A stretch of DNA of 64,000 bases from NCBI RefSeq assembly GCF_024749285.1, contig NZ_CP087196.1, forward strand, positions 6,448,001-6,512,000. Reading direction: 5' to 3'. Source of the DNA: Pseudomonas sp. B21-015 (GTDB taxonomy: Bacteria > Pseudomonadota > Gammaproteobacteria > Pseudomonadales > Pseudomonadaceae). This document shows positions 35,560-61,539 of this stretch, in pieces (the stretch's first letter is position 1; each line of letters starts with the position of its first letter). A program made the position numbers and the translations under genes. The notes under the pieces are model-generated. The model searched no databases. It was not told the origin of the DNA and saw only the letters and a program-made list of their open reading frames with translations.

Positions 35560-37113
35560 TCACGCCGGGCTCCAGACCTCTTTGAGCCTCGCCAGTGCCG
35601 ATTCGATCGCCGCCTCCGGCACTGCGGCGAACCCCAGGACCAGCCCCGCTCGCTGGTCCTCGGGAAGCGTCGTGTCTGGCAGCCAATAACTGCTCAGTCC
35701 ATTGACCTCCACCCCGACGCTGGTGGCTTGTTCGATCAATTCGCGCTCACGGGCCACGCTGTCGACACGTACCGTCAGGTGCAAACCGGCCGCCACACTG
35801 GGCAGCTTAGCGACGCCCGGGATATCCACAGGCCAACCATTGAGCAAGACGTTACGCCGACTCAACGCAGCACGGCGCATACGCCGGATGTGTCGCTGGA
35901 AGTGCCCGGCCGCCATGAACTCAGCCATTACCGCTTGAGTGCTGACCTCCGAATGCCGCACGTCCACCGCACGACGCTGGGAGAAAGCCTCAACCAACCC
36001 GGGCGGCAACACCAGATAACCCAGTCTTAACGCTGGGAATGCGACCTTTCCGAAGGTTCCGACATACAGCACTCGCCCCTGCCGATCCAGTGCAGCCAAC
36101 GGCGCCAGCGGTGCGCCGCTGTAACGGTATTCGCCATCGTAGTCATCCTCGACGATCCAGCCTTGGGTGCGTTCGGCCCAGGCCAATAATTCAAGGCGTC
36201 GCGCCAGACTCATGACCACTCCGGTCGGGTACTGATGCGACGGCGTGACGTAAGCCAATCGACAATCGCTGAGCCCCGCCAATTCGGTGCAATCAATGCC
36301 CTCACTGTCCACCGCTACCCCGTGCAATCGCGCGCCAGCTACAGCGAACGCATGACCCGCCGCTCGATACCCCGGATTTTCAATGCCCACCCCATCGCCA
36401 GGCTCCACCAGCAACTGTGCACAAAGGCTAATCCCCTGTTGTGCGCCACTGGTGATCACTATTTGCTCAGCCGAGCACTGCATGCCGCGCGAACTGCGCA
36501 AATAAGCAGCAATCAGCCCGCGCAAGCGCTCATCGCCTGCCGGATCGCCATAACACAGTTGCTGTAAATCCGGCTTACGCCAGAAAGCCGCGCTCAGCTT
36601 GGCCCAGACCTCGAAAGGAAACAGATCGAACGCCGGCACACCGACCCTGAATGCGCGCGGTGGACCACCCGGCGGCACGGCCAAATGATTCTTTTCAACG
36701 CGTCCCAAAGCGTCGCTGTGGATAACTTTACTGGATGAAACCACAGGCAAATCCAGCCAATTTGTGGATAAGGCTGTGGGTAACCCTGTTGAAAACCCTG
36801 TGGATACTTTTGTGGATAATTTTTTCACCGGCCACGCGGCTTGAGGCAATTGCGCGACGTAAGTCCCATCGCCCACACGCCCCTCGATGAAGCCTTCAGC
36901 GTAAAGCTGATCGTAGGCCCGGACCACGCTGTTGCGGGAAATCGATAACGCCGCCGCCAGATCGCGACTGGCCGGCAGTCGTGTGCCGCTGGCCAATCGC
37001 CCGTCGAGCACGCGTACCCGCAGCGCTTGATAGAGCTGACGGCTCAGGCCCTGACGGCGATCGAGTTCGATACCGGCCGGATTGAACGACGAGGGAAGCG
37101 GCGTATTCGACAT
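35560..37113 (-). CDS. MocR-type GntR regulator with aminotransferase domain
   Basis: The 517-residue regulator has a GntR winged helix at about 15-85 (RQLYQALRVRVLDG and LPASRDLAAALSISRNSV), a linker at about 92-160, and a class I aminotransferase-like domain to the end with the PLP-binding lysine K356 in GTFGK. MocR proteins sense pyridoxal phosphate or amino compounds and switch nearby genes. It is divergent from the two acetyltransferase genes, 125 bases apart. The linker holds a run of tetrapeptides (LSTK, VSTG, FSTG, LPTA, LSTN) encoded by DnaA-box-like 12-mers. The target cannot be told from sequence. Confidence 0.92.
   Translation of the reverse strand: MSNTPLPSSFNPAGIELDRRQGLSRQLYQALRVRVLDGRLASGTRLPASRDLAAALSISRNSVVRAYDQLYAEGFIEGRVGDGTYVAQLPQAAWPVKKLSTKVSTGFSTGLPTALSTNWLDLPVVSSSKVIHSDALGRVEKNHLAVPPGGPPRAFRVGVPAFDLFPFEVWAKLSAAFWRKPDLQQLCYGDPAGDERLRGLIAAYLRSSRGMQCSAEQIVITSGAQQGISLCAQLLVEPGDGVGIENPGYRAAGHAFAVAGARLHGVAVDSEGIDCTELAGLSDCRLAYVTPSHQYPTGVVMSLARRLELLAWAERTQGWIVEDDYDGEYRYSGAPLAPLAALDRQGRVLYVGTFGKVAFPALRLGYLVLPPGLVEAFSQRRAVDVRHSEVSTQAVMAEFMAAGHFQRHIRRMRRAALSRRNVLLNGWPVDIPGVAKLPSVAAGLHLTVRVDSVARERELIEQATSVGVEVNGLSSYWLPDTTLPEDQRAGLVLGFAAVPEAAIESALARLKEVWSPA
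36717..36819 (-). repeat. Cluster of DnaA-box-like 9-mers in a MocR linker
   Basis: The 9-mer TTATCCACA (minus strand), the classical DnaA box, is present exactly at 36717-36725, 36763-36771 and 36811-36819; one-mismatch forms lie at 36775-36783 and 36799-36807. Four of the five sit in 12-base repeats between 36763 and 36819 that encode LSTx units; the one at 36717 is in another reading frame (VIHS). All point the same way. Confidence 0.9.
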
Positions 37114-37238
37114 GAAAATGGACCTATGAAATTGGTCATTAATGGCTCTTACAACAGACCATTAGCCTGCCTAGGATGAAGGTATTCGCCAAGGAAATTT
37201 TCCCTGTACCTGCCACTTTGACGCGTTAAGGAATGAAC

Positions 37239-37685
37239 ATGAGTCAGATCGACATCCGCCAGGTCACCGCCGACGATCACGCTGCCTGGCTGCCGTTGTG
37301 GCAAGCCTATTTGCACTTCTACAACACCGAACTGCCCGATACCGTGACCCAAAGCACCTGGCAACGCCTGCTCGACCCGAACGAACCTACCCACGGGGCG
37401 CTGGCCTGGGCCGATGGTAAAGCGGTGGGCATGGTGCATTTCATCTATCACCGCTCGAACTGGAGCATCGAAAACTCCTGCTACCTGCAAGACTTGCTGG
37501 TGACGCCCGAAACCCGCGGCAACGGTGTCGGTCGGCAACTGATTGAGTTCGTCTACACCACGGCCAAGGCCGACGGGTGCTGCGAGGTCCATTGGCTGAC
37601 CCATGAAACCAACGCCACCGCGATCCAGCTCTATGAGCGCATCGCCGAACGGCCTGGTTTCATCCAGTTTTGCAAAGCCCTTTAA
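37239..37685 (+). CDS. GNAT family N-acetyltransferase
   Basis: The 148-residue enzyme has the GNAT fold. The acetyl-CoA loop is TPETRGNGVGRQLIEFVY (near 91-108; the R-G-x-G-x-G pattern), preceded by the strand CYLQDLLV and followed by VHWLTHETNATAIQLYERI. The C-terminus is short (RPGFIQFCKAL). ATG 37239 with AAGGA six bases upstream is preferred to ATG 37233. The acceptor is unknown. It is first of two tandem acetyltransferase genes with a 17-base gap, divergent from the MocR regulator that may control them. Confidence 0.9.
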   Translation: MSQIDIRQVTADDHAAWLPLWQAYLHFYNTELPDTVTQSTWQRLLDPNEPTHGALAWADGKAVGMVHFIYHRSNWSIENSCYLQDLLVTPETRGNGVGRQLIEFVYTTAKADGCCEVHWLTHETNATAIQLYERIAERPGFIQFCKAL

Positions 37686-60183: not shown

Positions 60184-61155
60184 CTAGTTCGCTTGAACCC
60201 TGCATCCCGCCAGACCTTCCTGCAGCACTTCAACAGCCTGCGGCTCACTGAAAATCAGCTCGATACGCGAATCCCGACGCCATTCGCTGGGTTGCCAATC
60301 CAGTAACGAGTTATCCAATGCGTTGGCCGATATCCACCCCTCGACACTGTGGATAACCAGCTTCGCCCGCCGCCACTCAAGGCGCTCAAGCCACTTCCCG
60401 ATTAGTACGGCATCGAATATCTGACCCGGATGCCAGCGCCAGCCGATGCTCCAGCCGCCCTCTTGCGCCTGACTCAAGCAAATCGGCAACGTGGGGTCGG
60501 TCCAGATGGCCGGCATCTGCGACAATCCCTTGGGCACGATGAAGTTATCCAAACCTGCCACAGCCTGAGCCTTGAGGCCCGGTAACTCGCTCAACGGCAA
60601 GACAGCTTGCTGCGTCCAATACAAAGGACGCGTCGGCAACTGTGCGGCGATTCGCTGGCGATCACTGTCGTCGAGGCTTTCTGCCTTGTTCAGCAACAGC
60701 AACCCGGCACTGTCCAGCGCGTGCTGTTGCGCCGCAGGCAGCGGTTTTCCGGCCGCGAGCGCCTGGGCATCCAGCACCAGCACACAGGGTTGCACCGCCA
60801 GGACGCCTCGCCATGGAGCCTCACTTAATTGCTTGAGCAACTGCGCCGGATGCCCCAGCCCGGAAGGCTCAATGAACAGTCGATCCGGTCGTGCCTTGCG
60901 CAGCAACCGCCCGAGGCCGATCTGAAACGGCGCACCATTGACGCAACACAAACAGCCCCCGGCCACTTCCCCCAGTGCGATACCATCGGCGTCCTGAGTC
61001 AACAGCGCAGCATCCAGGCCGATCTGGCCGAACTCGTTGATCAGCACCGCCCAGCGCTCACCGGCCGGCCGTTGCGCCAGCAGGTGCTTGATCAGGCTGG
61101 TCTTGCCGGCACCCAGCGGGCCGGCAATGACGTGGGTCGGAATGTTCTGCAACAT
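60184..61155 (-). CDS. CobW-family GTP-binding protein (shorter paralogue)
   Basis: The 323-residue G3E GTPase has Walker A GPLGAGKT at 12-19, the metal-binding CLCC (C68, C70, C71, in GGCLCCVNG), Walker B-like LFIEPSGLGHP and the base-specific NKAES. A CobW_C domain follows (about 215-323). Such proteins pass zinc or cobalt to target enzymes. It starts 27 bases from the divergent gene at 61183 and has a poor ribosome site; the longer frame is antisense to that gene and is rejected. It and the CobW protein at 62194 make a zinc-type locus. Confidence 0.9.
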   Translation of the reverse strand: MLQNIPTHVIAGPLGAGKTSLIKHLLAQRPAGERWAVLINEFGQIGLDAALLTQDADGIALGEVAGGCLCCVNGAPFQIGLGRLLRKARPDRLFIEPSGLGHPAQLLKQLSEAPWRGVLAVQPCVLVLDAQALAAGKPLPAAQQHALDSAGLLLLNKAESLDDSDRQRIAAQLPTRPLYWTQQAVLPLSELPGLKAQAVAGLDNFIVPKGLSQMPAIWTDPTLPICLSQAQEGGWSIGWRWHPGQIFDAVLIGKWLERLEWRRAKLVIHSVEGWISANALDNSLLDWQPSEWRRDSRIELIFSEPQAVEVLQEGLAGCRVQAN

Positions 61156-61182
61156 GGTCGAGGTTTTCTGAGGAGGTAAAGG

Positions 61183-61539
61183 ATGCGGTTGATGGGATGG
61201 TCGTTGCTTCTGGCGCTCACATCGGGCGAAGCGCTGGCCCAGGCCTGCGTGGTGCACAGTACGGCTGAGCGGCTCGACGTGAAGGTTTGCCAGCAAAACC
61301 GTAACATCCCGGAAAAACTGTTCGCCGACGGATTCTGCAAGCCGAACCTTCCCGGACAGAAAGTCGAGGTGCAGTACGTCGACCAATGCCCCACTGGCGC
61401 ATTCGGGGTGTGCAACAACGCTCAAGTCGCCAATATGCCTTACCGGCAGGATATTCACTATTACGGCGTGGCTACCGACGCGGCGTATTTGAAACCGTTT
61501 TGCGAAGCCCAGAGCCAGGGAACCTGGCTCAAACCTTGA
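61183..61539 (+). CDS. Secreted cysteine-containing protein of unknown function
   Basis: The 118-residue protein has a signal peptide (MRLMGWSLLLALTSGEALAQ, cleavage after ALA) and five or six cysteines in the mature part (ACVVHS, VCQQN, FCKPN, QCPTG, VCNNA, FCEAQ), enough for two or three disulfides. It has an excellent GGAGG site. It is placed between two CobW genes, so it may be periplasmic and metal-related, but I do not recognise the family. It ends five bases before the stop of the convergent DUF1826 gene. Confidence 0.8.
   Translation: MRLMGWSLLLALTSGEALAQACVVHSTAERLDVKVCQQNRNIPEKLFADGFCKPNLPGQKVEVQYVDQCPTGAFGVCNNAQVANMPYRQDIHYYGVATDAAYLKPFCEAQSQGTWLKP

Follow-up and report, generated by a model that had tools for sequence, protein, structure and literature searches.

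A DnaA-box array and two further DNA blocks inside the gene of a MocR-type regulator probably make up a DnaA-binding locus that tunes the initiation of replication. Such a locus would be like datA and the DARS elements of E. coli in kind, and would not be a member of either class. The parts are present together in most of the orthologues compared, stand at constant distances from one another, are conserved at silent sites and in nearly all of the genomes measured lie close to dnaA. From the sequence we infer DnaA as the binder, Fis as a possible partner, a DnaA filament and a role in replication.

The array and its companion blocks

The host gene (517 aa; minus strand, 35560..37113 of the window, by which we mean the whole 64-kb stretch of DNA that was analysed) encodes a GntR-type HTH and an aminotransferase-like domain (PF00392, PF00155). 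It scores 424.4 bits against the NCBIfam PdxR model NF052282, where the cut-off is 320, and so qualifies as a MocR/PdxR regulator. Exact copies of the DnaA box TTATCCACA are found at 36717, 36763 and 36811 on the minus strand, the MocR coding strand, and one-mismatch boxes at 36775 (TTACCCACA) and 36799 (GTATCCACA). All five point in the same direction within 103 bases, just as an earlier note on this DNA had described. The window as a whole has 17 sites with at most one mismatch, where 6.0 (sd 2.25) are expected and 17 was reached in none of 100 shuffles. This fits the generic picture of a DnaA-box cluster outside oriC, namely several close boxes above chance.

The earlier note counted four in-phase units encoding LSTx. 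The units are indeed 12-base in-phase repeats, and TRF also detects 12-bp units, but there are five of them, a two-mismatch copy having been overlooked. LSTx is an approximation, and the encoded peptides are LSTK, VSTG, FSTG, LPTA and LSTN. The units, all on the minus strand, differ in how well their sequence is kept among 105 Pseudomonas orthologues, which are those left after removal of rows identical outside the linker. Unit 1 (TTATCCACA; 36811..36819; codons 99-101, LST) reads CTATCCACA in 65 of the 105 and TTATCCACA in 22. The identical form is present in 67 of 105 for unit 2 (GTATCCACA; 36799..36807; codons 103-105, VST), in 51 for unit 3 (TTTTCAACA, weak with two mismatches; 36787..36795; codons 107-109, FST) and in 59 for unit 4 (TTACCCACA; 36775..36783; codons 111-113, LPT). 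Unit 5 (TTATCCACA; 36763..36771; codons 115-117, LST) is exact in 101 of 105, and is likely to be a strong anchor box with weaker neighbours. It is followed on the same strand by a 37-bp spacer (36726..36762) of constant length and variable sequence, in which no IHF consensus site was seen by eye, and then by box 6 (TTATCCACA; 36717..36725, minus strand). Box 6 is read in a different frame as V-I-H-S, as had been noted, and is exact in 83 of 105 orthologues.

The boxes lie within 36717..36819, the span to which the earlier note confined the feature, but the feature continues. About 300 bp deeper in the MocR gene there is a second conserved DNA block, at 36415-36471. Its first part, E2 (GCTGAGCAAATAGTGATCACC; 36451..36471, minus strand, codons 215-221), is conserved at silent sites and has CAAATNGTGATCACC in 95 of 105 orthologues. 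Its second part, E3 (AGCCTTTGTGCACAG; 36415..36429, minus strand, codons 229-233), has CTTTGTGCACAG exactly in 102 of 105. E2 contains GAGCAAATAGTGATC, which we take to fit the Fis core GNNYRNNWNNYRNNC, a loose consensus, and presumably also resembles half of a CRP/Vfr site. E3 includes TTGTGCACA, one mismatch from TTATGCACA, and the TTATGCACA form occurs at oriC. The E3 word TTTGTGCACA has 8 copies in its own genome, compared to 1 for the reversed word.

Wherever the script found both parts concerned, the spacings are constant: 46 nt in 81 of 81 cases (start to start from unit 5 to box 6, in orthologues with both boxes exact), 260 nt in 82 of 82, and 39 nt in 101 of 101. Part of this rigidity is expected because the aminotransferase-like domain tolerates few indels. 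A search of 293 genomes of the order gave two boxes 37 nt apart in 6; in four of these, all Pseudomonas, the pair is inside the MocR orthologue, and the other two (G265, G403) have other spacers. With the second block included, the element is both bigger than the array alone and more elaborate in structure. The best reading is that array and E2/E3 would constitute one composite DNA element of ~405 bp (36415-36819) within the gene.

Silent-site conservation and descent of the element

Selection at the DNA level on the array and E2/E3 is well supported by the comparison of 110 orthologous loci (30 + 80), of which 109 were codon-aligned after a locus with ambiguous bases was dropped. Third-position changes were counted by parsimony on a tree made from the remainder of the gene. 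Outside the linker the mean is 23.7 changes per codon. Codons 99-117 have a mean of 6.4, the lowest of all 19-codon windows of the gene; with codons 90-136 set aside, the minimum falls at codons 217-235, the window that holds E2 and E3. The 15 array codons have 63 changes, where 368 are expected from amino-acid-matched codons of the same gene and none of 200000 draws was as low. By the same measure unit 5 has 4 changes for 70 expected, and E2 and E3 together have 18 for 229. Codon choice in the array is correspondingly skewed: Leu is encoded by TTA at 263 of 384 positions in the array and at 269 of 6142 outside it, and Thr by ACA at 470 of 481 and 134 of 1576 respectively. For the most part, units 1-4 have each retained variants of their own that differ from the consensus at no more than two positions; weaker forms also occur, for example TTATCCCGG in unit 3. 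Since these variants are unit-specific and held, the repeat does not look homogenised.

Two claims of the earlier note can be judged from these counts. It had asked whether the 9-mers are kept at silent sites, and orthologues do retain them there. What it named as fatal to DnaA binding, LSTx residues kept in codons that destroy the 9-mer, is the opposite of what is found, unit 5 being exactly TTATCCACA in 101 of 105. It had also argued that peptide selection alone is insufficient. We concur, and reject selection for LST as the full cause: TTA, TCC and ACA are retained though synonyms exist, and box 6 is off-frame.

In 35 array-less orthologues, the E2/E3 codons are without special silent constraint. 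Codon 230 is CTT in 1 of these 35, compared to 108 of the 109 codon-aligned orthologues, and codon 232 is GCA in 2 of 35, compared again to 108 of 109. The orthologue L095 lacks the array within the clade, and both of its blocks are changed, with CTCTGTGCG and GTCATC there. Co-occurrence was scored in 198 distinct orthologues (from 210 loci), taking as present at least three boxes with at most one mismatch each, E2 with at most two mismatches and E3 with at most one. All three parts are scored by the script in 160 orthologues and none of them in 30, the remaining 8 being mixed. One of the 30, L116, was misplaced by the anchor rule; its boxes and E2/E3 are intact, which brings those with all parts to 161. 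Mixed results come from L185, which lacks the array and has one mismatch in E3, from L195, where the array is decayed, E3 has two mismatches, the frame is broken and the genome is 86% complete, and from L095 and five outgroups. The loose E2 matches, with two mismatches, are in six array-less rows, namely L095 and these outgroups, and E2 is therefore less diagnostic than E3. The species are related, so these counts overstate independence.

A single gain followed by one or more losses may account for the pattern. Among 40 more distant orthologues, 36 are without an intact array: 20 from other genera of the family, 15 from Pseudomonas, and L195. The array was found in none of the 20 fetched from other genera, and is present in four distant Pseudomonas orthologues (L196, L198, L199, L200). 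Its absence from those 20 and from L095 indicates that it is not a general need. Four of the five orthologues fetched from one other genus (L202, L203, L208, L212) have a single TTATCCACA read as LST in the MocR linker, and the array may have grown from such a seed. Because the array-less linker is short and these four carry a single box, the array may well have originated by tandem growth. In the P. putida group, box 6 has been lost in part. In L111 and L199 additional coding sequence, REP-like by eye, has been inserted into the linker immediately ahead of the array; both orthologues are positive for E2 and E3.

Proximity to dnaA and the wider set of boxes

Position 1 of the contig is dnaA, and the adjoining spacer bears oriC-type boxes that include repeats of the same 9-mer TTATCCACA. 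The array is 106 kb upstream of dnaA. The 800 kb surrounding dnaA contain 59 exact boxes, and in a scan by 200-bp windows (weight 1 for an exact box, 0.4 for a one-mismatch box) only oriC matches the score of the MocR array. The whole-genome count called for by the earlier note gives 153 copies of TTATCCACA and 21 of the reversed word, about a seven-fold excess. By hand count, 143 of the 153 are in the dnaA-centred half of the chromosome (53 beyond 5.71 Mb). The terminus half has the other 10, about as many as an even spread of the reversed control word would give. An excess of TTATCCACA is seen in most of 99 Pseudomonas genomes, with little in G014 (32 vs 24), G054 (16 vs 9), G028 (16 vs 7) and G013 (26 vs 8). 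In the array-less genome G078, there is a gap at 1.68-3.65 Mb among the boxes listed (40 of 51).

The element is 48-158 kb upstream of dnaA in 23 of the 24 array-bearing genomes measured, a count that leaves out the complete array-bearing genomes G036, G062, G084, G108 and G186. In the array-bearing genome G029, the gene is 1.33 Mb from dnaA. The host gene is also near dnaA in array-less genomes such as G078, G113 and G182, and is not in G041 and G176. Position is therefore not independent evidence; the location either predates the array or is shared.

Apart from those of oriC and MocR, boxes near the origin tend to be retained as well. Of the boxes that could be aligned, three relatives keep 31 of 35, 18 of 30 and 14 of 28, where the local 9-mer expectation is 13.4, 6.7 and 3.5; the alignable part of the 800 kb is 34 to 43 percent. 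Predicted genes, taken as mechanical frames of at least 120 aa, contain 42 of the 59 boxes; these occur on either strand and in all frame relations but the one that would introduce an in-frame stop. A dense box field from about -20 to +60 kb of dnaA (L141-L143, L180), in genes and spacers, is kept in three relatives well above local expectation. The array thus seems to belong to a broader conserved set of boxes, as its densest member outside the origin.

Some single sites and other repeats were observed in passing. Within the window, there is an exact box at 907 and another at 60348-60356, the latter in the minus-strand ORF 60184-61458, a GTPase-like gene (CobW-like by eye), where it is read as VIHS and is kept in two of three relatives. 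Five copies of TTATCCACA are exactly 1056 bp apart at G000:C1:1160273-1164497, perhaps in a long repetitive gene. A perfect tandem repeat of the 7-mer CCCAGCA, 5.9 copies, is at 2554-2594 of the window inside the open frame 2338-2658. Its unit is not a multiple of three, which suggests a possibly phase-variable or interrupted gene.

What the element may do

That DnaA would bind here, one of the earlier note's two options, is a prediction well motivated by the identical 9-mers at oriC. DnaA would bind the strong box of unit 5, together with box 6 at its constant 46 nt. It would then spread cooperatively to units 4 to 1, which are weaker, point the same way and repeat every 12 bp, in much the manner known from the weak-site arrays of oriC. 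E2, as a Fis-like site, and E3, as a DnaA-box-like site or the site of some other partner, may assist or time the loading of DnaA. The element's place on one arm, not far from oriC, means that it would be copied soon after initiation. The duplicated element would then change free or ATP-bound DnaA, either by titration or hydrolysis in the manner of datA or by reactivation in the manner of DARS, and the changed pool would help to set the timing of initiation.

Control of DnaA away from oriC is understood mainly from E. coli and Bacillus, and the element can be compared to known systems. In datA, DnaA boxes flank an IHF site; the locus promotes hydrolysis of DnaA-ATP, and its loss leads to over-initiation. 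The likeness is to a non-oriC cluster of DnaA boxes, early replicated, several hundred bp long and thought to use a second, DNA-bending protein. In contrast to datA, the Pseudomonas boxes are mostly in-frame 12-bp units of coding sequence in one direction, with no IHF site recognised by eye. DARS1 and DARS2 have DnaA boxes plus distant Fis and IHF sites at set spacing, and in this respect E2, at its constant distance, fits the loose Fis core, again with no IHF site recognised by eye. The DARS core, however, is intergenic and has few boxes, three in mixed directions, and no unidirectional 12-bp ladder, whereas the element here is inside a gene and has all its boxes on one strand, a 12-bp ladder plus one. 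Its geometry appears unlike that of datA and DARS. The DnaA-box clusters of Bacillus and Streptomyces likewise stand away from oriC and titrate DnaA or modulate initiation. They belong to different phyla, whereas selection here is within a protein-coding gene, and we know of no accessory blocks in them comparable to E2/E3. The weak-site array of oriC also has a strong box beside weaker, same-direction, closely spaced ones. However, dnaA is 106 kb from the element and has its own oriC-type cluster adjoining it, and nothing suggests that the element is an origin.

The main rival to a role in initiation is that DnaA binds and acts locally, repressing or roadblocking transcription of MocR or tying it to the cell cycle, with initiation unaffected. 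DnaA is a known transcription factor, and the element is in a single gene, on the coding strand, ~295 nt into the frame, and stays with the MocR gene even far from dnaA, as in G029. We nevertheless think this rather unlikely, because E2/E3 are ~640-700 nt into the gene, an odd location for promoter control, and because retention extends to many origin-proximal boxes in spacers and in genes other than MocR. The promoter also bears its own unrelated conserved site. The MocR gene and a GNAT acetyltransferase gene are divergently oriented, and the promoter region that separates them (37114..37185) is strongly conserved in an alignment of 80 loci and has the motif ATTGGT...ACCAAT, which differs from TTATCCACA and is probably the MocR regulator's own operator. 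With that separate site present, autoregulation of MocR via the boxes is disfavoured.

It is improbable that the reader of the element is a nucleoid-organising or other DNA-binding protein, to which the match to the DnaA 9-mer would be secondary. E2 and E3 are not classical DnaA boxes, and the resemblance of E2 to a Fis core and half a CRP/Vfr site would favour such a protein. Against this, the repeated word is identical to the oriC box of the same genome, and TTATCCACA is both in excess and biased to the origin.

Selection on codons or mRNA, with rare TTA and ACA slowing translation in the interdomain linker for folding or with the mRNA itself folding, seems very improbable. TTA and ACA are rare in the gene, but box 6 retains its 9-mer off-frame with the common codons ATC and CAC, and E2 retains common codons such as ATC, which disfavours rare-codon pausing. 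The RNAalifold energy of -35.0, as against a mean of -16.6 (sd 4.2) in 15 column shuffles, at face value favours some structure; it is weak evidence because column shuffles do not keep dinucleotides. Against a structure, among 54 predicted pairs none had two-sided changes without breaks and 3 were broken in more than one fifth of the sequences (20 of 109 used), and a search of Rfam over 36200-37300 gave one chance match only (13.4 bits, gathering 72). An RNA element is disfavoured, the RNAalifold energy being the one result on its side.

That the array is a neutral tandem repeat expanded in a tolerant linker, the earlier note's other proposal, agrees with the detection of 12-bp units by TRF, the short repeat-free linkers of array-less orthologues, the single box in its LST context in four orthologues of another genus and the insertions tolerated in L111 and L199, but is hardly credible as a sufficient cause and is rejected on the silent-site evidence: the 9-mer is retained at silent sites conserved far above the remainder of the gene, the unit-specific variants are not homogenised, and E2/E3 co-occur with the array although outside the linker.

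Returning to a DnaA-binding locus that tunes initiation, a wider view can be offered more tentatively. Much of the genus Pseudomonas may have a dedicated replication-control locus in the frame of a metabolic regulator, with a DnaA filament site and fixed accessory blocks, perhaps gained once. Within a field of conserved boxes that occupies the origin half of the chromosome and falls to about chance level in the terminus half, it would be the strongest node outside the origin. If so, the timing of initiation would be set partly by dual-coded DNA within ordinary genes. A conserved DnaA-box element of fixed geometry would be a handle on replication timing in Pseudomonas, and would be a clear case of dual coding, for protein and for initiator binding, in one stretch of DNA.
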